From a bacterium (lineage in GTDB: Bacteria; BMS3Abin14): a stretch of DNA of 31,406 nucleotides. Numbering within the stretch: the first letter of the stretch is position 1; every line of letters starts with the position of its first letter. Below are positions 117 to 21,954 of this stretch, in pieces. The stretch is taken from the NCBI GenBank assembly GCA_029210545.1, contig JARGFV010000020.1:1-31406 (forward strand), in the 5' to 3' direction. The notes under the pieces were generated by a model. The model saw only the letters and a program-made list of their open reading frames with translations. It did not search any database and was not told the DNA's origin. Made by a program: the position numbers and the translations under genes.

Positions 117-139
117 AATGATCATAAAAAGGGAGCTTT

Positions 140-5180: not shown

Positions 5181-5185
5181 TGATC

Positions 5186-5842
5186 ATGTTCACTGGGATC
5201 ATTGAGGAAACCGGGACACTTTTACGGCTGGATACCGCGGCAGGTGGAGCCCGTGTCGAGATCAGGGCCGGTGCCGTTCTGGGGGGGACGAGGATCGGAG
5301 ACAGCATCGCCGTCGACGGCGTATGCCTGACGGTTGAAAAGGTCACCGGCAGCCTGTTCACGGCATTCCTCTCCTCGGAAACCATGGCCAGGACAACCTT
5401 CGCCCGCGCACGGTCCGGTGATCCGGTAAACCTGGAAAGAGCTCTTGCCATGGGAGATCGACTGGGAGGCCACCTGGTATCCGGACACGTGGAGGCTACA
5501 GGAACCGTGCGTGAGATGAGGGAAACGGGGGAAGGCCGTCTGCTGGTCGTCTCCTGTCCTCACGGGTTCATGCCTTATGCGGTACAAAAAGGATCCGTTT
5601 CCGTCCACGGGGTAAGCCTGACCATAGCCGGTGTGGAAGGAGACCGCTTTTCGGTGGCTGTTATCCCGGAAACCTTTGAAAAAACGACCTTTAGATTGAA
5701 AAGGCCGGGTGATTTTGTTAATTTGGAACCCGATCTTATCCTCAAATATGTGATGTCTGCTGTCCGTAACCTCAGCGATGGAGACGGGGACAGGCTGGTC
5801 ACCCTGGCCAGGCTGAGAGAAGCAGGGTTTCTTGCGGACTAA
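5186..5842 (+). CDS. ribE: Riboflavin synthase, alpha subunit
   Basis: This enzyme dismutates two molecules of 6,7-dimethyl-8-ribityllumazine into riboflavin and the ribD/ribB-side pyrimidine. The protein has the family's tandem lumazine-binding barrels. The first starts with [10 protein letters not shown] and the second near residue 97 ([11 protein letters not shown], echoing the first). At 218 residues the length is typical. A GTG at 5180 is in frame, but the ATG at 5186 gives the canonical N-terminus and a five-base spacing from AGGAGG (5175-5180). That Shine-Dalgarno overlaps the end of the right arm of the repeat hairpin upstream, so the repeat could influence translation. ribBA follows after 11 bases. 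The gene is also called ribC in some species. Confidence 0.95.
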
Positions 5843-5853
5843 TAGGGGTTGGT

Positions 5854-7056: not shown

Positions 7057-7169
7057 AAGCGGATACCCCGGTATGGGAGTATCGGGGTAACGGAGTGTCG
7101 GTGTGAAAATATTGACGCCGATACCATGATGGACTCGTAATAGGTCCATCAAGTATGAAAGGAGAGGTC
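7057..7169 (+). other. ribBA-ribH spacer with three small stems
   Basis: The spacer contains the stem TACCCCG/CGGGGTA (7064-7070 and 7083-7089). A second, partly G-U paired stem lies around 7097-7123. A third stem, GATGGAC/GTCCATC (7128-7134 and 7144-7150), ends eight bases before the ribH ribosome binding site. None has a T-run, so none is a clear terminator. They could process or pause the transcript, but this is speculative. Confidence 0.4.
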
Positions 7170-7640
7170 ATGTCCGGATACAAGGCCGTTGAGGGGAAAC
7201 TGGATGCCACCGGGCTCAAGACGGCGGTGGTCGCTTCCCGGTTCAACGATTTCATCACCGCGAAACTGATCGAGGGAGCTGTTGACTGTCTGGTCAGGCA
7301 CGGATCTGCCGAAAAGGATGTCACCGTGATCAGGGTTCCCGGTTCTTTTGAGATTCCCGCCGCCGCCGCCCGCGCCGCGGGTTCAGGAAAGTTCGACGCA
7401 GTGATCTGCCTGGGGGCGCTCATCAGGGGACAGACCCCCCATTTCGACTATATAGCCTCAGAGGTGACGAAGGGGATCGCACATGTGTCTCTGGAAACGG
7501 GCGTGCCGGTCACCTTTGGCATCATCACCGCAGACACTCTTGAACAGGCTGTTGATCGTGCCGGGGCGAAGGCCGGGAACAAGGGGTTCGAGGCCGCCCA
7601 GAGTGCCATTGAGATGGCTGATCTGCTCAAGCAGATCTGA
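7170..7640 (+). CDS. ribH: 6,7-dimethyl-8-ribityllumazine synthase
   Basis: RibH condenses the aminouracil product of the RibD branch with dihydroxybutanone phosphate to make lumazine, the substrate of RibE. Family motifs are [39 protein letters not shown] with the catalytic-site His91, and [11 protein letters not shown]. The open frame begins at ATG 7155, but AAAGGAGAGG (7158-7167) lies inside that extension. It is a strong ribosome binding site for ATG 7170, which gives a standard 156-residue protein. nusB starts 11 bases after the stop, a very common pairing. Confidence 0.95.
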
Positions 7641-7650
7641 AGGCATCCCT

Positions 7651-8064
7651 GTGGGTTCCAGGAGACGAGGAAGAGAGGCTGCCCTGAAGATCCTCTACAG
7701 CATGGAAATGAATCCGGGTCCTGTGGAGGATGTTTTCAGACAGGTCCTGAATTGCGGAAGCGAACCGGAAGCTGCCCATGAATTCGCGAAGATGCTGGCC
7801 GGAAGGACCATCGACCGGATGGAGGAGATCGATGGCCGGATCAGGAGCGCTTCCCTGAAGTGGGATCTCGACAGGATGGCTGCTGTGGACAGGAACGTTC
7901 TGAGGCTGGCGGTCTCCGAGCTCATCGGCCAGGAGGGCACACCGGTTAGAGTTGTGCTGAATGAAGCCATCGAGCTGGCAAAGAGGTACGGCGGTGAGGA
8001 ATCGGGAACCTTCATCAACGGGATCCTGGACCGCATCCGTATCGATCTGGGGTTGGAACCGTGA
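7651..8064 (+). CDS. nusB: Transcription antitermination factor NusB
   Basis: NusB binds boxA RNA with S10 (NusE) and supports antitermination of rRNA operons. The protein is all-helical. It starts GSRRRGREAALKILYSMEM, shows DLDRMAAVDRNVLRLAVSEL in the middle, and ends with the family signature ESGTFINGILDRI. The frame is open upstream into ribH, but GTG 7651 gives 137 residues, the usual length, and lies seven bases after AAGG (7640-7643). The stop overlaps the next gene in a GTGATG junction, suggesting translational coupling. Confidence 0.92.
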   Translation: MGSRRRGREAALKILYSMEMNPGPVEDVFRQVLNCGSEPEAAHEFAKMLAGRTIDRMEEIDGRIRSASLKWDLDRMAAVDRNVLRLAVSELIGQEGTPVRVVLNEAIELAKRYGGEESGTFINGILDRIRIDLGLEP

Positions 8065-8573
8065 TGGGCGTCCAGGTCCGGGGCGGTAACCTGCTCAACT
8101 TTCGTGGAGATGCGCTCCTCCTGTTCCATCATTCTGACGTTCGGCCCCTTGGCGGTACAGTTGCTTTTGCTGACTGGCGTTTGAACGCCGCGGTGAGCAT
8201 CCTGTGGAAGCGAAAATCCGAACTGTTCCGTTTCGGGCAACTTACCGTTGTCGCGACCCAGGGCAAAGTTCCAGCGAATACGATTATCCTGACAGGTCTG
8301 GGGGCGGTCCCGGATCTCAGCTCCGATCTGCGCCGGGAGGCCTACCGATTGGCGCTTCAGTCCGCGGTTAACCTGGGGGTCTCGAGGATCGCGGTGCAGG
8401 GGATAAACATCGAAGATGAGGTGGAGGACGGGAGCCTGAAAGCCCTCGAATCGGCCCTTGCGTCCAGCAGGATGCCTAACAGCCTGAAGGTCTCCCTGTT
8501 TCCAGACCACCGGGTGCCGGTGGCTTCACAAGTTTCTGAAAAAAGCGAAACCGCAAAACTGGCTGAAAAATGA
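8064..8573 (+). CDS. Stand-alone domain resembling the N-terminal domain of M17 leucyl aminopeptidase
   Basis: The 169-residue product has no catalytic peptidase part. Its pattern resembles the macro-like N-terminal domain of M17 leucyl aminopeptidases: FRGDALLLFHHSD, then a glycine-containing segment (PLGGTVAFADWRLNAAVS), then ILTGLGAVPDLSSDLRREAY, then a helix and a strand (LGVSRIAVQGIN). In the full enzymes this domain helps hexamer assembly. What it would do alone is unknown. The frame also allows GTG 8061, overlapping the nusB stop; ATG 8064 was chosen. The gene is joined to nusB and to the phosphoesterase by overlapping stop/start codons. The last ~25 residues are polar and probably disordered. 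The fold assignment is by eye. Confidence 0.65.
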   Translation: MGVQVRGGNLLNFRGDALLLFHHSDVRPLGGTVAFADWRLNAAVSILWKRKSELFRFGQLTVVATQGKVPANTIILTGLGAVPDLSSDLRREAYRLALQSAVNLGVSRIAVQGINIEDEVEDGSLKALESALASSRMPNSLKVSLFPDHRVPVASQVSEKSETAKLAEK

Positions 8574-9298
8574 AGATCGCCATCATCTCGGACATACATT
8601 CGAACCTGGAGGCCCTTCAGGCAGTGGACGGCGCACTGAGCGACCTGGGTGCTTTGATCGTCTACTTTGCCGGCGATGTGGTCGGGTATGGGCCGGACCC
8701 CAACCTTTGCGCAGCCTGGGTCCAGGAGAGGGCCGACCTGGCTGTCATGGGTAATCACGACTACGCAGCCCTCGGGCGGATGGATACGGACAGTTTTAAC
8801 CCTAACGCGAGGCATGCCATCGAGTGGAACTCTGACCAGATGGATGAAAAGGCGAAAGATTACCTTGCCTCACTCCCCATGGTCCTTGCCAGGAACGGGG
8901 TCACTGTGGTTCACGCCAACCCCCGGGAACCTGGAGGGTGGGATTACATTTTCTCCCTCTGGGACGCTGAGATGAATTTTGAACATTTCGAGGGAAGTTT
9001 CTGTTTTGTGGGACACTCACACCAGCCTGTCGCCGTCGGGATGGATCAGGCGGGTCAGGTTTCCGTGGTGCCGGGCGAGTCGTTCAGGGTTCAAGAGGGC
9101 GCCAGGTATCTGGTCAACGTGGGAAGCGTCGGACAGCCGCGAGACGGAAACCCCGCAGCCTGTTTCGGTCTCCTGGATACCGATGAGGGCCTTTTCACAT
9201 TTGTCAGGGTGCCCTACGATCTGGAGGTCACGCAGAAGAAGATGCTGGAGGCCGGTCTTCCGAGGCCCCTTGCTGAAAGACTGGCGGAGGGAAGGTGA
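8570..9298 (+). CDS. Calcineurin-like metallophosphoesterase (YfcE/MJ0936-like)
   Basis: A 242-residue metal-dependent phosphoesterase. All family motifs are present: DIHSN (Asp8, His10), GDVVGYGP (Asp36), GNHD (61-64), VVHANP, and GHSH (148-151). These residues would bind two metal ions. The GDVVGYGPDP form and the NVGSVGQPRDGNP segment are typical of the prokaryotic subgroup annotated as diadenosine tetraphosphatase-like or YfcE-like phosphodiesterases. The substrate cannot be told from sequence. It starts in an ATGA overlap with the upstream gene, and its stop overlaps the next gene's GTG start, so the three genes are likely co-translated. Confidence 0.88.
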   Translation: MKIAIISDIHSNLEALQAVDGALSDLGALIVYFAGDVVGYGPDPNLCAAWVQERADLAVMGNHDYAALGRMDTDSFNPNARHAIEWNSDQMDEKAKDYLASLPMVLARNGVTVVHANPREPGGWDYIFSLWDAEMNFEHFEGSFCFVGHSHQPVAVGMDQAGQVSVVPGESFRVQEGARYLVNVGSVGQPRDGNPAACFGLLDTDEGLFTFVRVPYDLEVTQKKMLEAGLPRPLAERLAEGR

Positions 9299-11154
9299 GT
9301 CCAGACACCGGAAGCGGACAGCAGGGATCCTCGGGCGCCGTCCTCGATCCCACAATGAGCCTGGTAGGCAGGCTGGAAGACCTCTCCCTCGGAGAGATCC
9401 TTCAGATCGTCAGCCTCAGCAAGAGGTCCGGATTGCTGAGGCTTGAGGCGCCTGACGGAATGGCGAACCTCTACGTCCGCGCTGGAAAGGTCATCTACTC
9501 CTCCAGATCGGACCAGAAGGACAGCGTCCTGGCTCTGCTCCTGGAATCCGGAGTTCTCAGGGAAGACCAGGTCGGGCCCCTGCGGCAGGTCCTCGAGGAA
9601 GGCGCGTCCACCAACGATTTCAGGTCCCTTCTTACGGAAACGAGCGGCCTCACCCGGGAGGCGTTCCAGGATTTTTTGAGAAAAAGGGTCGAGGACCTGG
9701 TGTATTCCTTTTTCCTTTGGGAGGAAGGGACTTTCAGCTTCCAGCTCATTGAGGACGAGACCAGGCACCCTCTCCTTTCCCGGGTAGGACCATTCTTCCT
9801 CGATGACGGTATCGGAGCGCAATTCCTGGTCATGGAGGGGGCCAGGCTGAAGGATGAGATGAACCGCCATCGGCCGGCGATTCCGGACAAGGGTGCTGAC
9901 TTCCCTGTCGAAGGGGGCTGGGAACAGGAGTTCGAAGAGCAGTTGACGGGGGAAAAGACCGCACCGTCGATTGCTTCCGAAGAGAAGCCGTCCCGGCCGG
10001 AATCGAAGGAAACCGACGAGTTCAAGATACCGGACCTGCTGCCTCCTTTGCCGGAGAGGATATCAAACGCTGTCGTGATGATAGGCCTGCCCGGACCCCT
10101 GGCCGCCGAGGTGGCCAACGGCCTCAATGACAAAGGTATTACACTGCAGGTGCACAAGGACGGGGCCGATGGTATCACAAGGATCCAGGAACTGCGGCAG
10201 CAGCGGAAATATCCCTTTGTCCTTATGGACATAGAGGCTGCCGGGATTACCGACGACAGGGTCCTGGGCGGGTTGGAAAGCGTGATCACCATGTGGGATC
10301 TGGGTTTCCATCTCCCGGTGGGGCTGGTATGCAGACGGGAGCTTTCGGATGACCTCCTCCGGAAACTGTCGGTCATCCCGGGATTGACCGTTCTGAATGT
10401 GGAGGACCCTCCGTCCAGAGATAGTGTGAAATCGGTTATCGAGCTCATTGTTCAGACTGTTCATGGGGCGCAAGCGGCCGAAGCGGAAAGCCCCGGCTCC
10501 TCCCAGACGGCGGAGGCCGAGGCCGATATGGACGAATACTACGATATCCGGCAGGAACTCAGTGAGGACCTGGAAGGGATCGATCTGCCCGTGGACACCA
10601 GCTGGGAGGGTGGCAGGAGCCCCCGGCAGGAGTCCCAGGACCCGCACATGGCTCGTCTTGGATCTTTCGTGAGTGAGCTCAACCGCCAGGATATCAGTGG
10701 GGAGATAACCCTGCTTGCCCTTCGGTTTGCTTCTGATTTCGTGTCCAGAGCCATCCTGTTCCTGGTCCGCAAGGAGGACCTGAAAGGTCTCGGGCAGTTC
10801 GGTGTGGAGCTGCCGGGCGGGCAGAACCCTGACAGCGTTGTCCGGTCCCTCTCCCTCCCCGTCGTGGAGAATTCCATCTTTCACCAGGTGACACGGAGCC
10901 AGCAGAGTTACGTGGGAGCGCCCACCGGATCCGTGACCGAGAACGCCCTGTTTGAGGCGTTGGGGGGAGGAACTCCCCGGCAGATCTACCTCGGCCCCGT
11001 GGTAAGCATGGGGAAAGTAGCCGTGCTGCTTTACGGGGACGATTATCCGGGCGGCACGGGTCTCGAGCCCAGCCATACCCTGGACATTTTTCTCAGCCAT
11101 GTCGGGCTTGCCCTGGACAGGGCTTTTCTGGAAATGAAGCTCAAGGGACGATGA
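9295..11154 (+). CDS. PATAN/DUF4388-domain signalling protein with degenerate receiver-like middle region
   Basis: A 619-residue protein. Residues about 20-130 match the PATAN (DUF4388) pattern: LVGRLEDLSLGEILQIVSLS, KRSGLLRLEAPDG and an FLWEEGTFSF end. This domain often accompanies two-component, chemosensory and gliding-type signalling proteins. Residues about 258-385 look like a receiver-like alpha/beta region (VVMIGLPGPLAAEVANGL...YPFVLMDIEAAG...HLPVGLVCRRE) without a clear set of receiver residues. An acidic linker follows. The C-terminal ~170 residues may be a GAF-like sensor fold (weak). GTG 9295 overlaps the upstream stop and has GGAGGG at 9286-9291. ATG 9355 is an alternative. Position next to cheY/cheA suggests a role in that pathway. 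Confidence 0.8.
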   Translation: MSPDTGSGQQGSSGAVLDPTMSLVGRLEDLSLGEILQIVSLSKRSGLLRLEAPDGMANLYVRAGKVIYSSRSDQKDSVLALLLESGVLREDQVGPLRQVLEEGASTNDFRSLLTETSGLTREAFQDFLRKRVEDLVYSFFLWEEGTFSFQLIEDETRHPLLSRVGPFFLDDGIGAQFLVMEGARLKDEMNRHRPAIPDKGADFPVEGGWEQEFEEQLTGEKTAPSIASEEKPSRPESKETDEFKIPDLLPPLPERISNAVVMIGLPGPLAAEVANGLNDKGITLQVHKDGADGITRIQELRQQRKYPFVLMDIEAAGITDDRVLGGLESVITMWDLGFHLPVGLVCRRELSDDLLRKLSVIPGLTVLNVEDPPSRDSVKSVIELIVQTVHGAQAAEAESPGSSQTAEAEADMDEYYDIRQELSEDLEGIDLPVDTSWEGGRSPRQESQDPHMARLGSFVSELNRQDISGEITLLALRFASDFVSRAILFLVRKEDLKGLGQFGVELPGGQNPDSVVRSLSLPVVENSIFHQVTRSQQSYVGAPTGSVTENALFEALGGGTPRQIYLGPVVSMGKVAVLLYGDDYPGGTGLEPSHTLDIFLSHVGLALDRAFLEMKLKGR

Positions 11155-11160
11155 TATATC

Positions 11161-11276
11161 GCGAACGGGCCTGGCGGGCCCTTCGCTCAACGCAACGGGA
11201 AAAGCATCGTTTCCCCGTTGCTCACGAACCAGTGGCACAGGGAATGGTCCCTGGTTCGGGCGCCTCTTGCAGGCGC
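11161..11276. repeat. Modular hairpin element, copy 2 (DUF4388 gene to cheY)
   Basis: Three or four stems lie in the 204-base gap. GCGAA(c)GGGCC (11161-11171) pairs with GGCCCTTCGC (11177-11186). CAACGGGAAAA (11193-11203) pairs with TTTCCCCGTTG (11210-11220) around GCATCG, with one mismatch. After CTCAC, CGAACCAG (11225-11232) pairs with CTGGTTCG (11251-11258). GCGCCT (11260-11265) pairs with AGGCGC (11271-11276). The order and loops match copies at 1-116 and 21962-22164, but the stem sequences differ. Beyond it, TCACGAATCA occurs twice (11286-11295 and 11329-11338). Confidence 0.75.
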
Positions 11277-11358
11277 GGTTGCCAATCACGAATCATCCGA
11301 CTACGCTCTTTGAGCTAGGACACGCGAGTCACGAATCACGGCGCTCTGAGGTGACACG

Positions 11359-11727
11359 ATGAGTAAACGGATCCTGGTTGTGGAAGATTCCCCGATGACA
11401 AGGTCTCTCATTGTTTCGTCCCTGGAGGAACTGGGGGATTTTACGGTGATCGAGGCGGCCAACGGGTTCCAGGCTTTGCGGAAACTCCCCGAGGTCAATC
11501 CTGATCTGGTCATCACCGATATCAACATGCCGGATATAAACGGGCTTGAGGTTGTCCGCTTCGTCAAGCAGAGCGACAACTTCAGGCACATCCCGGTCAT
11601 CATCGTGACGACGGAGGGCCGGGATGTGGACAAAGAGCGCGGACTCCGTCTCGGTGCCGACCGATACCTGATCAAACCGTTCGAGGCAGAGGAGCTGCAG
11701 CGGTTCGTTCAAGAGCTGCTGGGCTGA
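11359..11727 (+). CDS. cheY: Single-domain response regulator, CheY-like (first copy)
   Basis: A 122-residue receiver domain with no output domain. The acidic pair is Glu9-Asp10 (VVEDSP), the phosphoacceptor is Asp54 (VITDINMP), the switch threonine is in IIVTTEG (84-85), and the conserved lysine is Lys106 (LIKPF). It should be phosphorylated by the CheA encoded 13 bases downstream. It shares the TDINMP and TTEG segments with the second CheY at 21580. ATG 11359 has GAGGTG at 11348-11353. No flagellar gene is in the window, so its output target is unknown. Confidence 0.93.
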   Translation: MSKRILVVEDSPMTRSLIVSSLEELGDFTVIEAANGFQALRKLPEVNPDLVITDINMPDINGLEVVRFVKQSDNFRHIPVIIVTTEGRDVDKERGLRLGADRYLIKPFEAEELQRFVQELLG

Positions 11728-11740
11728 CCTGGAGGAGACA

Positions 11741-13780
11741 TTGGATCAGTCGCTGAAAGATTTTGTCGCCGAAGCTGAAGACATACTGGAGAGTCTCGAG
11801 GAATCCATAAGCTACCTTATGGAGATCAACCCGGACGATCATAGGAAGCCCGATATCATCAATGCCGTCTTCAGGCACGCCCACTCCCTGAAGGGGTTGT
11901 CAGGGATGTTCAACCTCGAGGGACTGGCTTCCCTTTCCCACAAGCTGGAAAACCTTCTGGATTCCATGAGGCTCGACAAGGTTCAGCTCTCTCCCCAGGT
12001 TGTCGAGGTCCTCGGGCAGGGCATCCAGATGCTGATGAGAATGGTCAGGGCCGTCAGCGAGGGCAAACCGGATACCTCGGTGGACAGCTCGAAGTTTCTC
12101 AAGGACCTGGAAGATCTGGGAAAGGGCGAAATCGACCAGGAAAGCGACGATCTGTCGTCCTTCATCTCGGTTCCGGGGGGGATGACCGAGATGCTCTCCG
12201 AATATGAGGAACACCGCTTCAGGGACAACATCCGGAAGAGAATACCTTTTTACCGAGTCAACTGCAGCTTCCCCCTGGAAACATTCGACGTTCAGCTGGA
12301 GAGTGTCGGCAGGGCCATCAAGGATATTGGTGAACTCCTCACGACCCTGCCGGAATCGGGCCTGGGTGATGACGGCAATATCGGGTTTATCCTCTATTTC
12401 ACATCCAGGGAACCGGAGGAAGAGGTTATCTCCCACGTCGGCACTGACGACTGGAACCTGGAGCCGGTGCCTTACACGGGGCACGCAAAGCCGTCCGCTC
12501 CCACAGCCGCGCCGGACACCGAGAAAATGGTGCCTTTGGAGGAAGGAGACACCTTCGAGGATGAGATAAAGGGGTTGAGCCAGACGGTGCGAGTGGATAT
12601 CGCCAAGCTGGATTTCCTCATGAACCTGGTGGGAGAACTGGTGATCATCAAGTCCGGTTATACCAACGTTGCCGGCCGTCTCAAGGGCGCAGGCGGGATG
12701 GTGCCCGCCGATATCCTCGTCGACCTCGAAAAGAGCAACTCCAACATGGAGAAGAAGCTTGTCGATCTGAGAGACGGCGTTATGGATATCCGTATGGTTC
12801 CCATGGGGCAGCTGTACAACAGACTCCAGAGGGTCTCGAAAAAGATCGCCAGGGAACTGGGGAAAAAGGTCAACCTGCAGTTCCTGGGTCACGATACGGA
12901 GCTTGACAAGATGATCATGGAGGAGATGGTCTCACCCCTTCTCCACATCGTGCGCAACTCCCTCGACCACGGCATCGAGGACGCGGGCACAAGGAAGGCG
13001 GCCGGAAAGAGCGAAAACGGCAATGTGAAGGTTTCCGCTTACCAGCAGGGTAACCACGTTGTCCTTGAAGTTGAGGATGACGGGCAAGGGATCGACGTTG
13101 AAAAGGTCCGCAGGGAAGCGATCCGGCGCGGGGAGTTCAGGAAGGATGATAACCCCTCCGATGACGAGGTTCTGAGCCTCCTGTTCAAGGCCGGTTTTTC
13201 GACGAAAGAAGATGTCACGGAGATTTCCGGCCGCGGTGTCGGGATGGACGTCGTCCGCAAGGAACTGGAAAACATCGGCGGTGCTGTTGAGATCCACACC
13301 CAAAGGGGCAAGGGAACGAGGATCGTCCTGACGCTCCCCATAACTCTCGCCATCCTTCAGGCGCTCCTGGTCAGGAACGGGACAAGGACCTACGCTGTCC
13401 CCATGGGCTCGATCCAGGAGACCATCGAACTGTCTGATGGCCAGATCAAGACCATGCAGGGACGGGAAGTGATCACCCTCAGGGACCGGACACTGCCTCT
13501 GATACGGCTCGATAAAGTCTTCAACCTGCAGGAGGAACAGATGCCCGGCCAGCTGTTTGCTGTCGTCATCGGGATGGCGAACCGTACCATGGCGCTTGTG
13601 ACCGGAGAACTCATCGGCAAACAGGATATCGTCATCAAGCCCCTTGGTGATTCGTTTTCCAGGAGCGTGGGCCTTGCCGGGGCTGCTGAACTCGGAGACC
13701 AGACCACGATCCTGGTCCTCGATGTCGCCGGGCTGATCATGGAATCGATCAGGCTCGGTGTCATGAGCAAAAGGGAGTAG
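11741..13780 (+). CDS. cheA: Chemotaxis-type sensor histidine kinase CheA
   Basis: CheA autophosphorylates on a histidine in response to receptor arrays and passes the phosphate to CheY and CheB. The N-terminal HPt domain carries His48 in HAHSLKGLSG. A P2-like region lies about 165-250. The dimerisation helices follow near 283-340. The ATPase domain shows the N box IVRNSLDHGIED (near 403), the G1 box EDDGQGID (near 443) and the G2 box GRGVGMDVV (near 496). A CheW-like P5 domain ends the protein (about 530-675). All kinase motifs look intact. The start is TTG 11741 with GGAGGAG at 11731-11737. No better start is seen. Length 679 is normal. Confidence 0.96.
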   Translation: MDQSLKDFVAEAEDILESLEESISYLMEINPDDHRKPDIINAVFRHAHSLKGLSGMFNLEGLASLSHKLENLLDSMRLDKVQLSPQVVEVLGQGIQMLMRMVRAVSEGKPDTSVDSSKFLKDLEDLGKGEIDQESDDLSSFISVPGGMTEMLSEYEEHRFRDNIRKRIPFYRVNCSFPLETFDVQLESVGRAIKDIGELLTTLPESGLGDDGNIGFILYFTSREPEEEVISHVGTDDWNLEPVPYTGHAKPSAPTAAPDTEKMVPLEEGDTFEDEIKGLSQTVRVDIAKLDFLMNLVGELVIIKSGYTNVAGRLKGAGGMVPADILVDLEKSNSNMEKKLVDLRDGVMDIRMVPMGQLYNRLQRVSKKIARELGKKVNLQFLGHDTELDKMIMEEMVSPLLHIVRNSLDHGIEDAGTRKAAGKSENGNVKVSAYQQGNHVVLEVEDDGQGIDVEKVRREAIRRGEFRKDDNPSDDEVLSLLFKAGFSTKEDVTEISGRGVGMDVVRKELENIGGAVEIHTQRGKGTRIVLTLPITLAILQALLVRNGTRTYAVPMGSIQETIELSDGQIKTMQGREVITLRDRTLPLIRLDKVFNLQEEQMPGQLFAVVIGMANRTMALVTGELIGKQDIVIKPLGDSFSRSVGLAGAAELGDQTTILVLDVAGLIMESIRLGVMSKRE

Positions 13781-13782
13781 GG

Positions 13783-14592
13783 ATGTATCTGGAATTTTTC
13801 GGGTTGAGCGCGAAACCGTTCGACAAAACCCCGAACCCCGCCTTTTTCTACCGCAGTCCCATCCACGAGGAGGCGCTGGCTCGCCTGCAATACGGGACCG
13901 AGGAAAGGGAGCTTACCCTCCTGACCGGTGAGATCGGTACGGGCAAGACCATGCTGAGCAGAGCCCTCATCGACTCCTTCAACGAGACGCACCTGCCCAT
14001 CCTCATGGTCAATCCGCGTCTTTCACCCAATCAGTTTCTCAAAACCATCGCCCGTAGGCTGGGGATCGACTCGCCCTCCTATTACCGGAACGACCTGCTC
14101 GATCAGATCAACGAGGCCCTGTTCCAGTGCTACGAGAGCGACATCTGCCCTGTGATCATCATCGACGAGGCCCAACTCATCCCTTCCAGGTCCACTTTCG
14201 ACGAGATCCGTCTGCTGACCAATTTCCAGCTCGACGACGCCAACCTGCTTGCCCTCATCCTCATCGGCCAGCCGGAGCTGCGCAAAAGGCTTAAACATGT
14301 TTCCTATGAAGCGGTTAAACAGCGTATAGGTATCCGATACCATCTCGGGCCCCTCGGCAGGGAGGATACAGGGCTTTACATCGCTCACCGGCTGAGTACG
14401 GCAGGCGGTGATCCCGGTATCGTGGACGAGGAGGCGGCTGATGTGATCTTCCGATATTCCGGGGGGCTGCCGAGGGTTATCAACAACATCGCCGCCAATG
14501 CCCTGCTGACCGGATTTTCGAAGGACCTATCGGTGATCGGCCCCGACATCGTTCTTGATGTCGTCGAGGATCTTGACCTCGAACCGGTCTGA
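13783..14592 (+). CDS. ExeA/GspA-like AAA ATPase within the chemosensory cluster
   Basis: A 269-residue AAA-type ATPase. It begins with MYLEFFGLSAKPFDKTPNPA, typical of ExeA/GspA and related proteins that work with secretion systems, transposition or polysaccharide export. Walker A is GEIGTGKT (49-56), Walker B is VIIIDEAQ (124-131), and later motifs include ILIGQPELRKRL and a YSGGLPRVINNIA sensor-2 region. It lacks a transmembrane segment and a peptidoglycan-binding domain, so it is the bare ATPase core. It starts three bases after cheA with AGGGAG upstream and is followed by cheW, so it is probably part of the pathway. The target it remodels is unknown. Confidence 0.88.
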   Translation: MYLEFFGLSAKPFDKTPNPAFFYRSPIHEEALARLQYGTEERELTLLTGEIGTGKTMLSRALIDSFNETHLPILMVNPRLSPNQFLKTIARRLGIDSPSYYRNDLLDQINEALFQCYESDICPVIIIDEAQLIPSRSTFDEIRLLTNFQLDDANLLALILIGQPELRKRLKHVSYEAVKQRIGIRYHLGPLGREDTGLYIAHRLSTAGGDPGIVDEEAADVIFRYSGGLPRVINNIAANALLTGFSKDLSVIGPDIVLDVVEDLDLEPV

Positions 14593-14618
14593 TCCCGTTC
14601 GCCTGAGGGAGCAAAATC

Positions 14619-15416
14619 ATGGACCTTGTAGAGATCAGGAAGAAGGCAAAGAGCAGAAAAACCAAGAGCGCCAAGGCGAAAGCCGATAAGGAAAAGGTTG
14701 CGGCCAAACCGGTTAATAAGGAGCCGGCCGCCAGGCAGATCCAGGAACTTTTACCGGAAGAGGCGGTTGTCGCCGAGAAGGCTGAACAACTCGAACCGGC
14801 CGTTTCAAGCGAGGAATCTGCGGAAAAGGAATCTGAAGATATGGATGAAAACAAGGTCATCGCTTCCGCACAGGATGAGGACAGCCTGAGCAGTCTCAAG
14901 GAGGTCCTCATGAGCCAGCACGTGGAAAAAAAAGAGGAGGAAGAGGAACAGCTGCAGCTGCTTACCTTCATGCTGGGTGGTGAGGAATATGCCCTCAACA
15001 TCATGGATATCAAGGAGATCATCCGCCCGAGGGAATGCACGGAAGTTCCCAGGGCACCCGAATATATCCTCGGCATCATCAGCTTGCGCGGGACCATTAT
15101 CCCGATCTTCGATGTCAACAAACGCCTTGGTTTGCCTGTAGGTTTACGGGGAGCCCAGAACCGTATCGTGGTCGTACGTTCCAGGGAGCACCTGTTCGGC
15201 CTGCACGTGGACAGCGTGGTGCAGGTCATGGACATTCCTCTGAGCAGCATAGAACCTCCCCCGGAGATCCTCGGCGGTGTGGAAGGGGATTATTTAAGGG
15301 GAGTCGGGAAGATCGACGACAGGTTGATCATCCTTCTCAACCTGGGGAGGATCCTCGCCATGGAGGAGGAACAAGGATCGGCAAGGCAAGCGCTTTCCCC
15401 GGGTCGCAAGGGATAG
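14619..15416 (+). CDS. cheW: CheW-like adaptor with long charged N-terminal extension
   Basis: CheW links receptors to CheA. The CheW domain occupies about residues 110-250 (QLLTFMLGGEEYALNIMDIK, APEYILGIISLRGTIIPIFD, LFGLHVDSVVQVMDIP, LIILLNLGRIL). The first ~110 residues are not conserved CheW sequence. They start very lysine-rich (residues 7-30), become acidic and alanine-rich, and end with a run of glutamates before the domain. This is probably a flexible tail. ATG 14619 has GAGGGAG at 14605-14611, seven bases upstream. An internal start would shorten the tail but has no better ribosome binding site. It lies 26 bases after the ATPase gene. Confidence 0.92.
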   Translation: MDLVEIRKKAKSRKTKSAKAKADKEKVAAKPVNKEPAARQIQELLPEEAVVAEKAEQLEPAVSSEESAEKESEDMDENKVIASAQDEDSLSSLKEVLMSQHVEKKEEEEEQLQLLTFMLGGEEYALNIMDIKEIIRPRECTEVPRAPEYILGIISLRGTIIPIFDVNKRLGLPVGLRGAQNRIVVVRSREHLFGLHVDSVVQVMDIPLSSIEPPPEILGGVEGDYLRGVGKIDDRLIILLNLGRILAMEEEQGSARQALSPGRKG

Positions 15417-15430
15417 ATCCGGGGCGTGGC

Positions 15431-16354
15431 ATGGAAAGTCCGTCAATGAGCGGGGACAACGTGGACTCAACATCCGTCATTCTTCTCAAATGCACCGGTT
15501 GCGGCAAGGCGTACAAGGTCCACCCCGAGAAACTGCCCCGGGGTGTCACCAGTTTTCCATGCCGGGCCTGCGGATCCCTTATCCCCATCGACGGGATCAA
15601 CCAGGGGGCTGATCCGTCGGGTAAGCAGCAGGTGGTCATCATTGTGGTCGAGGAGAAAGATCTGGCCCAGCTCATCGAGCGGATACTCGTTCGACACGGA
15701 TACCGCGGCCTGTCGGTCCATTCCGGCAGGGAAGCCGTGGAGTTGATTCATCGGGGCCACGTGGACCTCGTCCTGATCAGCGTTTTTCTGCCCGACATGA
15801 TGGGCTACGAGATCCTTGATGCCATCAACGAAGGGCGAAAAGACGGGAGCAGGGTCCCTTCCATCCTGCTGTCCTCCGTTCACCACGCCGCCAGATACAA
15901 AAGAGCGCCTACATCACTATACGGGGCTGACGATTACCTGGAACGCCACCATCTGCCGGATCTTCTCATCCCCAAGATCCAGCGTCTCCTGGACAGTGAC
16001 GGATCGGGAAAACCGGCCGTGGATCCGGGGATGCTCCCTCCGCCGGCGGACGAACAGGTCAGGGAAAGGCGGGAGATAGAGGACCTGGAGATGAGAGAGG
16101 AGACCGGCGGGGATCCGGTCCTGGAGGATATCCGCCGCCTATGCCGGGTTATCGCCGGCGACATCGCCCTTTACAACGAGGATGTCATCCGTGCCACAAC
16201 ACCCGGCCGGATCCTGGAGGTGATTGTCCAGGATCTCAACGAAGGTGAGGCGCTCCTGGATAGGAAGTTCCCCGGCAAGGGAGAACTGACTTCGCAGCTG
16301 CTCCGGAAGGAGATGGCCAACCTGCTGAAATCCAGAGGGATCACTGATCCCTAG
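15431..16354 (+). CDS. Zinc-ribbon plus pseudo-receiver protein
   Basis: A 307-residue protein of uncommon build. Residues 21-47 form a zinc ribbon (C21-x2-C24 and C44-x2-C47). Residues about 68-190 resemble a response-regulator receiver (VVIIVVEEKDLAQLIERIL, VDLVLISVFLPDMMGYE, IPSILLSS, GADDYLERHHL). The phosphoacceptor position holds Ser117 instead of Asp, and the usual lysine is replaced, so normal phosphorylation is not expected. The C-terminal ~100 residues are helical and unassigned. The frame is open far into cheW, but no start there is credible. ATG 15431 is preceded by a GGGGCG-type sequence and ATG 15446 is an alternative. Its TAG stop begins the repeat that follows. Confidence 0.8.
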   Translation: MESPSMSGDNVDSTSVILLKCTGCGKAYKVHPEKLPRGVTSFPCRACGSLIPIDGINQGADPSGKQQVVIIVVEEKDLAQLIERILVRHGYRGLSVHSGREAVELIHRGHVDLVLISVFLPDMMGYEILDAINEGRKDGSRVPSILLSSVHHAARYKRAPTSLYGADDYLERHHLPDLLIPKIQRLLDSDGSGKPAVDPGMLPPPADEQVRERREIEDLEMREETGGDPVLEDIRRLCRVIAGDIALYNEDVIRATTPGRILEVIVQDLNEGEALLDRKFPGKGELTSQLLRKEMANLLKSRGITDP

Positions 16355-16548
16355 GAGCCTGTCGGAGAACCTCCCTTTTTCTTAGCAGGGAGGGCACAGG
16401 CTCCTAGCAACGTGTCGGACTTTACCGACACGTTGCTAGGAGTTTTTCGAAATGCCCCTTATTTTGGATGTTTTCCCGTTTTTCGCTGAATTGACTTTCG
16501 AAAAACTTAAGCCAGGAGTCTGAAACGGATAGTACGACAGACTCCTGG
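16352..16548. repeat. Dense set of four inverted repeats between the zinc-ribbon and HEAT genes (TGTCGG family, copy 3)
   Basis: First: TAGGAGCCTGT (16352-16362) with ACAGGCTCCTA (16396-16406), enclosing CCTCCCT/AGGGAGG (16370-16376 and 16387-16393). Second: perfect 17-bp arms at 16402-16418 and 16425-16441 (core CGTGTCGG/CCGACACG). Third: perfect 12-bp arms at 16441-16452 and 16496-16507 (AGTTTTTCGAAA). Fourth: perfect 11-bp arms at 16512-16522 and 16538-16548 (CCAGGAGTCTG). The first and second share bases 16402-16406, so they cannot both form fully. The first includes the upstream stop codon. Confidence 0.88.
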
Positions 16549-16558
16549 GGAGGCTGCC

Positions 16559-18589
16559 ATGGAACCGGACAGAAGAAAAACACTCATAGCAGCTCTTTCC
16601 TCTTCCGATGAAGAGGAAAGGCGTCGGTCCATGGAAGAACTCAAGGGAGACATCACGGAGGGAGATCTTGCGTGGCTTGTGGGCCCGCTGTCGGACGAGA
16701 GCTGGCGCGTCCGGAAGGAGGCCATAGAGGGGTTGAAGGCCTGCGCGCCCACTCAGGAACTCGTCGCCGCGATGATCCCCATGATGGACCCGTCCAGGGA
16801 ACTGACCCTGCGGAACTCCATCGTCGAGGTTCTCGAGGGCATGGGGCGGGAAGTCACACCTTTTCTGACCATGCATCTTCACGTTGACCAGCCGGATACA
16901 CGGAAGTTCCTGGTGGACATCCTCGGGAACATCGGCGATGTTTCGACGATCCCGCCTATTGTGGAACTTCTGGGTGACCAGGAGGACAACATCCGGGCTG
17001 CCGCGTCCGAAGCCCTGGCTTCCATCGGAGACCCTACGGTGACGGATGCTCTCATGGCCGCCATCCCCGGTTCTGACGAATGGGTCATTTTCAGCCTCCT
17101 GGGGGCCCTGGACAAACTCCGCTGTACAGAGGCCCTTCCCATGTTTTTCCAGTACCTCGACAACCAACTCCTGGCCAAACCTTCCCTTTCGGGGATCGGG
17201 AACCTGGGGAGCACTGCCGACGGAGTGATGCTCATGGAGATGGTCCCTGCCCTTTCCAGGGGGGCGGCCAAGGCGTCTTTACTCGCAGTGGGAACGATCT
17301 ACAGGAGGCATGCAGCAGCCGGGCAGTTTGCTGAAACCACCGCCCTGAGACAGGCTGCTGCATCCGCCGCCGAGGAGGGGATGGTCGATTTTCTCATCGA
17401 ACAGCTTTCTGTCTCTGACCAGTTGGAAAAGCGCCAGAGCCTCCTGGCTGTCCTCGGTATGATCGGGAGTGAAAAGGCCATTCAGGCGATCCTGCAGTTT
17501 GTGGATGACGACGCTCTTGAATGGGATGTGAGCCTAGCCCTCCTCACCGTCGGCACAGCGGACCTGACGCTCATCAAAAAGCTTCTGGATCATTTCGATC
17601 CCCTGGTCAGGCGCAATGCTGTGCAGATACTTGAACAGGTTGGAGGTCCGGGGTCGCTGCCGGCCCTGTATGAAAAGCTGGATGACGAGAGCGGACACGT
17701 CCGGAAGGATGCGGCCAAGGCCATCTCGACCATAGGAGACAGCAGTTCCATACCCCGCCTCCTCCCGTTACTGCAGGATGAATACAGCGATGTGGCTCAG
17801 GCTGCAGCCCAGGCCCTGATCGTCATCGGGCAAAAGGCCCCGGGACAGCTCTCCAGCGCACTGGTGCCTCTCCAGACGAACGCCGATCCGGTGTTCAGAG
17901 CGCTCCTCCTGAGGATAATGACCGAGGTGCAGACGCCCGAGTGGCAGGAGATGTGCCTGAGCGCTACCCACGATGAGGATTCGGCGGTCAGGGCGGCGGC
18001 GATCAGCTGTCTGAAGAGATCCACCGATCCCAACGCGGTCCGCGCGGTGATCAACTCCCTGGCCGATGAACGCCCCGAGGTCCGGGTTCAGGCTGCGATC
18101 AGCCTGGAAACACTCAAGGCCGGCGAGGCCCTCGCTCCTTTGAAGGCGGCTCTCCACGACCATGACCCGTGGGTCAGGACAGCGGCTATTTCCTCTCTGA
18201 GCGTACAGCCCGGAGCGGTTCCAGAAGATCTGGAGGACCTGCTCACAGGGAATGATCTCATGATGCAGACCTCTGTCGTGGATGCCCTCGGGCAGATGGC
18301 GGGTTCCGGAAAACCTGGCGCCATCGGGATGCTGGAGCGGGTTTTTGACGAAGGGACTGTCGAGACGAGGCGCAGCGTATGCCATATCCTGGGCAGGGTG
18401 AGTGACAGCCGGGCTTACGACCTCATTGTGAAAGCCGTCCATGACGAGGACCCGAGCATAAGGACATTCGCGGCCCATGCTCTTGGGCAACAGGGCGGCG
18501 AAGATGCCGCGGAGATCCTCCGGAAAATGGCTCAAAGCGATCCTGACCGGAATGTGCGTGATTCGGTGCGGAACATCGTGGAGGCGTAA
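16559..18589 (+). CDS. HEAT-repeat protein of the chemosensory cluster
   Basis: A 676-residue protein made almost wholly of HEAT/PBS-type helical repeats of about 30 residues. Examples are AAASEALASIGDPTVTDALM, AAKAISTIGDSSSIPRLLPL and AAISCLKRSTDPNAV. Such solenoids are protein-binding scaffolds with no catalytic activity. There is no signal peptide or membrane segment, so it is cytoplasmic. ATG 16559 has GGGGAGG at 16547-16553, beside the right arm of the last hairpin upstream. cheR starts seven bases after its stop. HEAT genes beside che genes are known in deltaproteobacterial-type clusters, where the partner is generally not established. A role in assembling CheA/CheR/CheB or the output complex is inferred from position only. 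Confidence 0.88.
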   Translation: MEPDRRKTLIAALSSSDEEERRRSMEELKGDITEGDLAWLVGPLSDESWRVRKEAIEGLKACAPTQELVAAMIPMMDPSRELTLRNSIVEVLEGMGREVTPFLTMHLHVDQPDTRKFLVDILGNIGDVSTIPPIVELLGDQEDNIRAAASEALASIGDPTVTDALMAAIPGSDEWVIFSLLGALDKLRCTEALPMFFQYLDNQLLAKPSLSGIGNLGSTADGVMLMEMVPALSRGAAKASLLAVGTIYRRHAAAGQFAETTALRQAAASAAEEGMVDFLIEQLSVSDQLEKRQSLLAVLGMIGSEKAIQAILQFVDDDALEWDVSLALLTVGTADLTLIKKLLDHFDPLVRRNAVQILEQVGGPGSLPALYEKLDDESGHVRKDAAKAISTIGDSSSIPRLLPLLQDEYSDVAQAAAQALIVIGQKAPGQLSSALVPLQTNADPVFRALLLRIMTEVQTPEWQEMCLSATHDEDSAVRAAAISCLKRSTDPNAVRAVINSLADERPEVRVQAAISLETLKAGEALAPLKAALHDHDPWVRTAAISSLSVQPGAVPEDLEDLLTGNDLMMQTSVVDALGQMAGSGKPGAIGMLERVFDEGTVETRRSVCHILGRVSDSRAYDLIVKAVHDEDPSIRTFAAHALGQQGGEDAAEILRKMAQSDPDRNVRDSVRNIVEA

Positions 18590-18595
18590 AGGCAG

Positions 18596-19462
18596 ATGCT
18601 TTTCGAGACCGCCGGACGCGTAGAGCTTACCGACGAGGAGTTCAGACTTCTCGCGTCGTTCATTTACGACTACGCGGGAATGTATTTCGACGAATCAAGC
18701 CGGTTTCTCCTGGAAAGCCGTCTGCAGAACCGTCTCCTGGAACATCATTTCGATTCTTTCCTGAAATATTACCAGTACCTGCTCTATCATCAGGACCGCC
18801 TTGCCGAGATCAACGCCATGATCGATATTGTGACCACCAACGAGACCTATTTTTTCCGCGAAAAGAACCAGCTTGAGGCATTCGCCGAGGAGATCCTGCC
18901 CGCATTGGCCGCGAAGAACTCCGGGAAAAGGAAGATCAGGATCTGGAGTGCCGGCTGCTCCACCGGGGAAGAGGCGTATACCCTGGCCATTCTGATCAGA
19001 CAGTCCGGCCTGTTCGACAGTTCGTGGAAGGTGGAAATCATAGGTACCGATATAAGCCAGAGAGTTCTGGGTACCGCCCGGAAGGCTGTTTACTCCCAGT
19101 CCTCCTTCCGTGCCACTGAAGATGATCAACTCAACACGTGGTTCCACAAGGAGGGAGACGGGAAGCACTCCGTGGATGAATCGATCAGATCGATGGTTTT
19201 CTTCGGGCATCTGAACCTGATGGATGAGAAAATGATGGGCCTTATCGGTGAGTGCGACGTCATTATGTGCAGGAACGTGATCATCTATTTTGACAAGAAC
19301 GCCAAGGCGAAGGTTGTCAACTCTTTCTTCAAGAAGATCGCTCCGGGAGGATATCTGCTCCTGGGGCATTCAGAGTCGCTCATGAATATCACGACCGTTT
19401 TCAAACTCAAGCACCTGACGAAGGTGATGGTTTACCAGAAGCCTGAGGAGACAGATATATGA
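18596..19462 (+). CDS. cheR: Chemoreceptor glutamate methyltransferase CheR
   Basis: CheR methylates glutamates of chemoreceptors using S-adenosylmethionine. The N-terminal helical domain is about residues 10-85. The catalytic domain shows IVTTNETYFFRE, the SAM-binding loop WSAGCSTGEEAYTLA, IIGTDIS, and DVIMCRNVIIYFD. It ends with GGYLLLGHSESL. The protein is 288 residues, usual for the simple form without TPR repeats. Its stop overlaps the cheB start (ATGA). Its presence implies an adaptation system and a methylated receptor somewhere in the genome, although none is encoded here. Confidence 0.95.
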   Translation: MLFETAGRVELTDEEFRLLASFIYDYAGMYFDESSRFLLESRLQNRLLEHHFDSFLKYYQYLLYHQDRLAEINAMIDIVTTNETYFFREKNQLEAFAEEILPALAAKNSGKRKIRIWSAGCSTGEEAYTLAILIRQSGLFDSSWKVEIIGTDISQRVLGTARKAVYSQSSFRATEDDQLNTWFHKEGDGKHSVDESIRSMVFFGHLNLMDEKMMGLIGECDVIMCRNVIIYFDKNAKAKVVNSFFKKIAPGGYLLLGHSESLMNITTVFKLKHLTKVMVYQKPEETDI

Positions 19463-20565
19463 GTAACAAGGGCGGCACCGATAACCTTCGGGTCCTCGTT
19501 GTCGATGATTCTGCCTACAACAGGAAGATGCTCCGGTCCATGCTTTTGGATATGGAGGAGGTCGGGAGGGTGGACGCCGTATCTGACGGTGAGGAAGCTA
19601 TCCGCGTTGTCATGACAGATCCCCCGGACGTTATTACCCTCGATCTGAACATGCCCAGAATGGATGGTTTCACGTTTCTGCGTTGGCTCATGCGGAACCA
19701 TCCCCTTCCCGTGGTTGTGGTCAGCGCTGAGGGAGGCGAGAAAAACGTGTTCAAGGCCCTTGATCTGGGGGCCCTGGATTTCGTGGTCAAGCCGGTCCGA
19801 TACGCTTCGGAAAGGATCGTTGAGATCAGGGGTGAACTTCAGGAAAAGATCCGGGCCCTCACGGGAAAGGATCTGGGCCTGTACCTTAACCGGCTGAAGG
19901 TTAAAAAGGTGGCGGAAAAACCAGCGCCGCAGCCGGCCCGGAAAATGCCGGGTAAGAAGAGCGGGGGCATCCTCGTGATCGGGGCCTCTACGGGCGGACC
20001 GTCGGCTGTCCAGAGGGTCATTTCCGAGCTTCCAGCGGACTATCCTCTGCCGGTGATCGTCGTGCAGCACATGCCGCCTGTGTTCACGCGGCAGTTCGCC
20101 ATGCGTCTGGACCGGAACACAGCCCTTGACGGGAAAGAAGCGGAGGACGGTGATAAGCTCAGTCCCGGCACCGTGCTGGTTGTGCCCGGTGGGCACCACC
20201 TCGTCATTACCGGCAGGGACGGGAAGATAAAGATCGTTGAAAGGCAGGAGGGTGATCGCTTCGTACCTTCCGTGGACCGGACAATGACCTCGGCCGCGGA
20301 AACCTTCCGGGACCGAACGATCGGCGTCCTCCTTACCGGTATGGGCAACGATGGTGCGGAGGGTATGTTGAGGATCAGTGAGGCGGGCGGGTTCACGTTG
20401 GCCGAATCGGAGGAATCCTCGGTGGTCTTCGGGATGCCCCGTGCGGCCATCCAGAATAACGCCGCGCAGGATGTTCTGCACATCGAGAGTGTCGGTTCCA
20501 GGATCCTGGAGTTGACCGGGACCCTTACCGGCTTGAAAAATGACAGGAGCGGTGATAATAAATAA
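19459..20565 (+). CDS. cheB: Chemotaxis response regulator protein-glutamate methylesterase CheB
   Basis: CheB removes methyl groups from receptors when phosphorylated by CheA. The receiver domain has Asp16-Asp17 (VVDDSA), phosphoacceptor Asp62 (LDLNMPRMDG) and KPV. The methylesterase domain (about 170-360) has the catalytic triad Ser177 (GASTGGP), His204 (QHMPP) and Asp298 (GMGNDGAEGM), matching E. coli S164/H190/D286. Length 368 is normal. It overlaps cheR by four bases. Both domains look fully functional. Confidence 0.96.
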   Translation: MSNKGGTDNLRVLVVDDSAYNRKMLRSMLLDMEEVGRVDAVSDGEEAIRVVMTDPPDVITLDLNMPRMDGFTFLRWLMRNHPLPVVVVSAEGGEKNVFKALDLGALDFVVKPVRYASERIVEIRGELQEKIRALTGKDLGLYLNRLKVKKVAEKPAPQPARKMPGKKSGGILVIGASTGGPSAVQRVISELPADYPLPVIVVQHMPPVFTRQFAMRLDRNTALDGKEAEDGDKLSPGTVLVVPGGHHLVITGRDGKIKIVERQEGDRFVPSVDRTMTSAAETFRDRTIGVLLTGMGNDGAEGMLRISEAGGFTLAESEESSVVFGMPRAAIQNNAAQDVLHIESVGSRILELTGTLTGLKNDRSGDNK

Positions 20566-20645
20566 TGATTGGGACATTTGCCGCACAGTGAGAGGTCAAT
20601 GGCGCCTATTCACCGGGAAAGGTTCAGGAGAGGGCGGAATTCCAA

Positions 20646-21497
20646 ATGAGCATTAAGGACGACGATCAGGATATCAAGGGCGGGATTTTCGAGAAGGGTG
20701 AAGAGTTCCTGGATATGTTCCGCAAGGGACAGGAATTCACCCGCGACCTGCTGAAGGACAACGAGCGCCTGCGCTACCGTGTCGTTCAGCTTGAGGAGAG
20801 CCTGAAAAGAAAACTCGAGGGACCGGTGGAACAGGGATCAGGGATCGTTGACGAGGAATTGACTTCCAAACTGGCGCGATACGAAAACAGGCTCTCTGAA
20901 CTGGAGGCGCGCCTTCAGGAGATCGAGGCCGAGAACGTGGATTTCGTTCAGCGGTACGTCGATGTCGAGGAACAGAACAATAATCTGGCCAACCTGTATG
21001 TCGCCAGTTACCAGCTCCATTCCACCCTCGATTACCAGGAGGTCCTCCAGATAATCCTGGAGATCATCATCAACCTCATCGGAGCGGAGACCTTCGCCAT
21101 TTACCTCCTGGATGAGAAGCTCCAGATGCTCAATCCGGAGGCTTCAGAGGGGGTGCCGGTCTCAGAGATCCCTGCAGTGAAGTTCGGCGAAGGTGTCATC
21201 GGGAACACGGCAAAAACCAACGAAAGTTATTTCAACGAGAACCCTTCCAGTGACCTGAAGGTCCTTTTACTGGATCCGTTGGTCTGTATCCCCCTCACCA
21301 TCAAGGATGACGTGATCGGGGTTATCACACTTTTCAACCTGCTGCAGCAAAAGGAAAGTTTCGCCCCGGTCGATTTCGAGCTTTTCACCCTGCTGGCAGG
21401 GCATGCGGCCACAGCCATTTTCAGTTCGAAGCTTTTCACGGAGTCCAAAAGGAAGCTGAGCACCTACCAGGGTTTTCTGGACCTGCTGAGCCAGTAG
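20646..21497 (+). CDS. Coiled-coil plus GAF-domain protein
   Basis: A 283-residue cytoplasmic protein. Residues about 25-110 are heptad-like and charged (NERLRYRVVQLEESLKRKL, KLARYENRLSELEARLQEIE), predicting a coiled coil. Residues about 120-275 form a GAF domain: LDYQEVLQIILEIIINLIG, FAIYLLDEK, FGEGVIGNTAKTNE, CIPLTIKDDVIGVITLFN and an FTLLAGHAATAI helix. GAF domains bind small ligands or act in dimeric signalling; the ligand is unknown. There is no kinase, cyclase or methyl-accepting part. Placed between cheB and the second cheY, it could act as a soluble input or scaffold. ATG 20646 has only a modest Shine-Dalgarno (GGCGGA). Confidence 0.85.
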   Translation: MSIKDDDQDIKGGIFEKGEEFLDMFRKGQEFTRDLLKDNERLRYRVVQLEESLKRKLEGPVEQGSGIVDEELTSKLARYENRLSELEARLQEIEAENVDFVQRYVDVEEQNNNLANLYVASYQLHSTLDYQEVLQIILEIIINLIGAETFAIYLLDEKLQMLNPEASEGVPVSEIPAVKFGEGVIGNTAKTNESYFNENPSSDLKVLLLDPLVCIPLTIKDDVIGVITLFNLLQQKESFAPVDFELFTLLAGHAATAIFSSKLFTESKRKLSTYQGFLDLLSQ

Positions 21498-21562
21498 CGT
21501 TGATGGGCTCGCAAAATGGCTCCCCGCAACTCCACGGGAGACTTTTTGCGGCGTTATCAGCG
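21498..21562. repeat. Long hairpin between the GAF gene and second cheY
   Basis: Nested stems: CGTTGAT (21498-21504) with ATCAGCG (21556-21562, one G-U pair), CGCAAAA (21510-21516) with TTTTGCG (21544-21550), and CTCCC (21520-21524) with GGGAG (21536-21540). The GCAAAA...TTTTTGC stem resembles the one at 21962-21988 and the TTTTTGCG segments of the modular hairpin element. It starts one base after the GAF gene's stop codon. Confidence 0.65.
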
Positions 21563-21579
21563 TTGAAAGGGATAAACCA

Positions 21580-21954
21580 ATGGCAGCTTTGACTTTTCTG
21601 ATAATCGAAGATTCCCCCACCATGAGGCAGCTGATCCGTTTTGCCCTCAACAGGATCCCCGGGGCCCAGGTCGTCGAGGCCTCCGACGGTGTGGACGGAC
21701 TGAAAAAACTGTCCTCCAACAAGATCGACCTTATCCTGACCGATATCAACATGCCGATCATGGACGGGCTCAAGCTCGTGAACCTTGTCCGGTCAAACGA
21801 AGCCTACAAAGGGCTCCCAATCGTGATCATTACCACCGAGGGCGCCCGGGAAGACAAGGAAAGGGCCATGGCTCTCGGTGCCAACGCCTATATCACGAAG
21901 CCGATCCAGTCAACGACACTTCTGTCTATCGTCAAGGACCTCCTTAAACTATGA
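21580..21954 (+). CDS. cheY: Single-domain response regulator, CheY-like (second copy)
   Basis: A 124-residue receiver with acidic pair Glu10-Asp11 (IIEDSP), phosphoacceptor Asp55 (LTDINMP), ITTEG switch segment and Lys107 (ITKPI). It is closely similar in motif detail to the CheY at 11359, but the two are not identical; they may serve as output and phosphate sink, as known in other multi-CheY systems (inference). ATG 21580 has AAGGGA a few bases upstream. It is the last gene of the cluster; a hairpin with a T5 tract in its 3' arm follows after seven bases. Confidence 0.93.
   Translation: MAALTFLIIEDSPTMRQLIRFALNRIPGAQVVEASDGVDGLKKLSSNKIDLILTDINMPIMDGLKLVNLVRSNEAYKGLPIVIITTEGAREDKERAMALGANAYITKPIQSTTLLSIVKDLLKL

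Follow-up and report, generated by a model that had tools for sequence, protein, structure and literature searches.

Chemosensory clusters without receptor genes

Clusters of che genes that contain no mcp gene, the beta group, are common to Geobacter and myxobacteria, and have been known since 2008, with unpublished evidence mentioned for their involvement in the control of the extracellular matrix (Tran et al. 2008, PMC2577667). In Geobacter, three adjacent genes, GSU2220 (CheW, esnB), GSU2221 (ATPase) and GSU2222 (CheA, esnC), are important for growth on electrodes, with a transposon phenotype listed for GSU2221 alongside esnB and esnC (Chan et al. 2017, PMC5585712). The Esn system also includes a GAF-MCP, GSU1704 (esnA), and a c-di-GMP synthase, GSU3376 (esnD), both likewise important for electrode growth, and, in that organism only, a receptor-CheW-CheA complex is backed by two-hybrid data (PMC5585712); disruption of esnB leads to increased activity of a cGAMP reporter (PMC8835794). 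In Myxococcus xanthus, the locus tags of the Che8 cluster (MXAN_4751-4759) give the order cheY8b-cheA8-cheW8b-cheW8a-(two genes)-cheR8-cheB8-cheY8a, with no MCP (PMC3945109), and the function of Che8 is not yet identified (PMC9040617).

Gene content of the cluster

The window, that is, the whole stretch of 31,406 nucleotides analysed here, is contig C20 of the MAG G000 (2.72 Mb; 97.5% complete). Eleven genes, all on the + strand, fill positions 9295-21954 in the order shown in Table 1. The original prediction of a CheA, CheW, CheR, CheB and two-CheY core that is accompanied by an ATPase, a zinc-ribbon protein, a HEAT-repeat protein and a GAF protein is borne out in full, with strong Pfam support, and the PATAN (DUF4388) gene that was said to precede the cluster is best counted as part of it because it is identically placed in relatives. 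As also predicted, Pfam detects no MCP or flagellar gene among the genes of positions 9295-21954, and cheA, cheW, cheB and cheR are grouped in the cluster without an mcp gene. At positions 8061-8573 of the window, there is a short gene whose only match is Peptidase_M17_N (the N-terminal domain of cytosol aminopeptidase), with 39-55% conservation in the window's family.

Table 1. Genes of the chemosensory cluster in the window
Feature	Coordinates	Strand	Evidence and remarks
PATAN (DUF4388)-receiver-like-GAF protein, 619 aa	9295..11154	+	Pfam DUF4388 9e-22
CheY-type receiver 1, 122 aa	11359..11727	+	Pfam Response_reg 2e-28; phospho-Asp motif ITDINMPD kept
CheA kinase, TTG start	11741..13780	+	Pfam Hpt, H-kinase_dim, HATPase_c, CheW
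ExeA-like AAA ATPase	13783..14592	+	AAA_22 7e-23; TIGR03015 233 bits (cut-off 324.5)
CheW with N-terminal extension (EsnB-like)	14619..15416	+	Pfam CheW 1e-37
Zinc-ribbon, degenerate receiver and helical C-terminus, 307 aa	15431..16354	+	start reset to 15431
HEAT-repeat protein, 676 aa	16559..18589	+	HEAT_2 5e-77
CheR methyltransferase	18596..19462	+	CheR 5e-59
CheB methylesterase with receiver	19459..20565	+	CheB_methylest 3e-62; Response_reg 5e-26
Coiled-coil GAF protein, 283 aa	20646..21497	+	GAF_2 4e-14
CheY-type receiver 2, 124 aa	21580..21954	+	Response_reg 3e-28

The cluster is of the Geobacter beta-group/Esn type, with which it shares the cheA-ATPase-cheW adjacency, the cheR and cheB genes, the lack of an mcp gene inside the cluster and the presence of a GAF-MCP encoded elsewhere; by its position, the AAA ATPase is the orthologue of GSU2221. 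Judging from gene order, the cluster probably belongs to the Che8 type as well, the order of which, inferred from locus tags, is alike but without the ATPase. The M. xanthus Che7 system resembles the window's cluster in that it is reported to be associated with a protein of HEAT repeats (PMC9040617) but differs in having its own MCP (Mcp7) inside the operon (PMC3945109). The cluster had been singled out as unusual, which is not the case given the mcp-less beta group described in 2008 (PMC2577667) and the electrode-growth phenotypes of esnB, GSU2221 and esnC (PMC5585712).

Conservation of the cluster across phyla

The accessory genes are kept together with the che genes, as was expected, with the order recurring in the window's family, in Desulfuromonadales and in Nitrospirota. 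The genomes of the family have this gene order in common wherever contigs permit and encode CheA proteins that are 57-72% identical, compared with about 40% identity for the CheA orthologues in other phyla. An ATPase alignment was used to scan 84,980 species genomes. The 80 best loci, which were kept, come from Desulfuromonadales, Nitrospirota, Acidobacteriota and other groups, and cheA adjoins the ATPase gene in all of these 80 best loci; given that the query was the ATPase, this figure is no gauge of how often such a cheA occurs without the ATPase.

In profile searches, Geobacter sp. L137 and most of the Desulfuromonadales loci show the arrangement PATAN-cheY-cheA-AAA-cheW-REC-cheW-ZnREC-HEAT-cheR-cheB-GAF-cheY, in agreement with the earlier statement that related clusters exist in deltaproteobacteria. 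The order of the L137 locus is as in the window's cluster, from which the Desulfuromonadales clusters differ in having a second cheW, an extra receiver and a zinc-ribbon receiver with the Asp kept. The order is largely kept in Nitrospirota and partly in Acidobacteriota, and leuS follows the cluster in the window, in its family and, often, in Desulfuromonadales. Of the 93 loci scanned, 57 have the HEAT gene, and many of the 93 stop short of the HEAT position. The coiled-coil GAF protein is 65-72% identical within the family and 44-64% identical in other phyla, and the second CheY-type receiver is 64-90% identical in relatives.

In the CheA tree, all 30 of the AAA-linked CheAs form a single branch together with one CheA of G039 (support 100/99), and the second CheA of the window genome, encoded on contig C13, falls outside this branch. 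The G039 cluster, in a genome of 9 Mb, shows the Che8-like order cheA-cheW-cheW-HEAT-cheR-cheB-cheY, and neither the AAA ATPase nor the zinc-ribbon receiver is found in it. The second che cluster of the window genome (L059; G000:C13, positions 8837-13994) consists of genes for CheR, an MCP with a canonical tip, CheW, a receiver and CheA, with no flagellar genes recognised alongside.

Receptors encoded outside the cluster

The cluster was originally described as receptor-less, and its GAF protein or PATAN protein was suggested as a possible source of soluble input. An arrangement in which one of these two proteins feeds CheA in place of an MCP would fit the lack of in-cluster MCPs in the window's family, in Desulfuromonadales and in the Acidobacteriota loci seen, as well as the two soluble GAF proteins that are encoded close by. 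However, one to three MCPs are encoded within the orthologous clusters of Nitrospirota and others; in the Nitrospirota loci that reach HEAT, the MCP genes lie between or beside the cheW genes. In five Nitrospirota clusters (L102, L111, L113, L121 and L128), the MCP, GAF and PATAN proteins are encoded together and, because these two proteins are present beside MCPs within the same clusters, they are not stand-in receptors. Moreover, the Geobacter homologue works with EsnA, an MCP encoded elsewhere, the window genome encodes six dispersed MCPs with tips that match those of the in-cluster MCPs, and the fact that CheR and CheB are intact implies that there is a receptor to be methylated, so that a truly receptor-less system appears highly improbable.

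The in-cluster MCPs have an unusual tip: in 48 of the 48 captured by the motif, the residues that correspond to E385 and R388 of Tsr are I/L and Q, respectively. In Tsr, E385 and R388 have been described as ionic locks between the dimers of a receptor trimer (PMC8144572). The six dispersed MCPs of G000 share this I/L..Q signature, and the only canonical-tip MCP of G000 is the one within the C13 che cluster. The association was quantified in a set of 193 genomes, with a cluster-type ATPase defined as one scoring at least 330 bits, a line drawn after the scores were seen. This threshold is reached in 18 of the 193 genomes, and G074 has a lower-scoring ATPase beside cheA, which makes 19 cluster genomes. 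MCPs with the I/L..Q tip are encoded in all 19 genomes with the ATPase beside cheA, compared with 11 of the 174 others (Fisher p 6e-19 by genome, with genome counts that share ancestry, and about 6e-10 by family). G039, with its ATPase-less cluster, is one of these 11 and, because the tip also occurs in genomes without an ATPase beside cheA, it is associated with the cluster kinase rather than exclusive to it. The pairing of this receptor tip with the kinase was not found in a limited search of the literature and may be new.

No I/L..Q-tip MCP was found in G006, a genome of the window's family that is 80% complete and holds a gutted version of the cluster (L058; G006:C175, positions 3-4307), with the PATAN gene, a 276-residue CheA fragment, the zinc-ribbon protein and the CheB receiver, and without the kinase core, AAA, CheW, HEAT and CheR. 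Because both G006 and the window genome are MAGs, this loss could be an effect of assembly or completeness.

One of the dispersed I/L..Q-tip receptors of the window genome, the MCP at G000:C45:7514-9544, has the TM-GAF-MCP architecture of EsnA. It is 57-68% identical to MCPs in six members of the family and 28-29% identical, along its entire length, to a Geobacter MCP, the GAF domain of which is 65% identical to PDB 3oov, a structure that we take to be from G. sulfurreducens; the GAF domain of the C45 protein also matches 3oov. The EsnA-like MCP is absent from the near-complete relatives G001 and G007, where the cluster is present together with other I/L..Q-tip MCPs.

A further trait of the Geobacter beta-group/Esn type is the MCP heptad class 40H, with which the G000 MCPs can be compared by arm length only, and here the 28-residue periodicity of the coiled coil left the offsets ambiguous. 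Among the G000 MCPs, L006 alone lines up with the in-cluster MCPs of the long-arm kind when no offset is applied, and it does so at most positions of both arms, with scattered exceptions. Beyond the start of HAMP, this protein (G000:C161, positions 297-2633) has an insert rich in Cys (CWEELDCGKPDCP...CETCP), a possible metal or redox site. The MCP-like protein encoded at another locus, L008 (G000:C19, positions 8643-9014), has a divergent tip (SLNARIMAAQTG) and lacks any obvious membrane segment. In G116, six MCP genes stand in tandem (L234; G116:C164, positions 640-13500), five with the I/L..Q tip and the sixth with D for Q, and there is no che gene of the window's cluster type in this stretch.

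Because the ionic lock that E385 and R388 form between dimers in Tsr-type trimers is missing from the I/L..Q tip, it is conceivable that this kinase clade has a receptor class of its own and forms arrays that are insulated from the canonical chemoreceptors, in which case the AAA, HEAT and zinc-ribbon proteins would belong to the structure of the array; we put this forward tentatively and consider it rather doubtful.

Accessory proteins

As modelled by AlphaFold (mean pLDDT 77), the PATAN protein comprises a receiver-like alpha/beta domain (residues 258-397) and a GAF domain (residues 450-618); in the comparison of this model with the PDB, the target TM-scores of the matching solved GAF domains are near 0.7. 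The zinc-ribbon protein was thought to be a pseudo-receiver, and this holds within the window's family, where the phospho-Asp site is occupied by S/N/T, but not in Desulfuromonadales and others among the 19 aligned orthologues, where the Asp is kept, so that the pseudo-receiver is largely a family-specific state. The four Cys are invariant in 19 of 19 orthologues, and the receiver Lys is replaced by His in nearly all of them.

The resemblance of the AAA ATPase to the PEP-CTERM/XrtA-associated ATPase family (TIGR03015) hints, on sequence grounds, at an envelope link, and the ATPase might be the output effector itself, tied to the export of envelope polysaccharide, as would also fit the GSU2221 transposon phenotype beside esnB and esnC (PMC5585712). 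This role is unlikely given that the score is under the curated cut-off, that the orthologous cluster of G039 is without the ATPase and that no export genes are in the cluster.

A non-flagellar output

In the 97.5%-complete G000, no FHIPEP match, and hence no FlhA, was detected, and control profiles matched. A flagellar chemotaxis system is thus ruled out, in accord with the prediction that the system is not an ordinary flagellar one. G000 contains PilB/PilT genes and a type II secretion locus, along with 15 GGDEF matches, one of which is a REC-GGDEF protein (G000:C171). Combined with the Geobacter data, this gene complement, with PilB/PilT and GGDEF proteins but no FlhA, points to surface or biofilm behaviour, and surface or biofilm signalling is the likely role of the cluster, with an effector that is presumed in the window's organism. 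At L221 (G000:C86, positions 1-2514), a GAF-GGDEF gene adjoins the gene for a double-receiver protein, possibly a surface-signalling pair.

Surface-type signalling in which a chemosensory array acts on c-di-GMP is represented by the Wsp system of Pseudomonas. The Wsp receptor, WspA, belongs to class 40H (PMC2577667). Two hallmarks of Wsp, a WspR-like REC-GGDEF gene and a hybrid CheA-receiver, are missing from the window's cluster: by Pfam, none of its proteins has a GGDEF domain, and its CheA carries no receiver.

Alternatively, the chief target could be type IV pili instead of c-di-GMP or polysaccharide, and PilB could be what the PATAN protein acts on. PilB/PilT are present and FlhA is missing in G000, and PATAN-domain regulators have reportedly been linked with PilB, but the Geobacter data favour electrode growth, the c-di-GMP/cGAMP balance and the matrix, and no pil gene is seen within these clusters, so that we regard pili as an improbable chief target; there may be a connection between the pilus output and the matrix output.

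The reading that we favour, with a probability of roughly 0.85 for the proposal as a whole, is that the cluster is an Esn-type orthologue that works with dispersed I/L..Q-tip MCPs and has a non-flagellar surface output. The dispersed distinct-tip MCPs, including the EsnA-like C45 protein, would form arrays with the CheA and CheW of the cluster, CheR and CheB would provide receptor adaptation through methylation, and the phosphate of CheA would pass to both CheYs. The zinc-ribbon protein would be a receiver-like partner, with the phosphate site lost in the window's family, and the PATAN-REC-GAF, HEAT and AAA proteins would be downstream coupling parts. The output would be a surface programme that involves c-di-GMP, polysaccharide and/or type IV pili but no flagellum. 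The Esn phenotypes are carried over from the Geobacter papers, and we infer the phospho-transfer wiring, the accessory roles and the output in the window's organism.

Implications

A puzzling cluster can now be placed in a system for which experiments have revealed phenotypes, and the Esn-type system now reaches Nitrospirota and Acidobacteriota. The tip residues may provide a sequence rule that assigns orphan receptors to one of the several kinases in a cell and, if true, this rule would be a simple, testable basis for the separateness of parallel chemosensory arrays.
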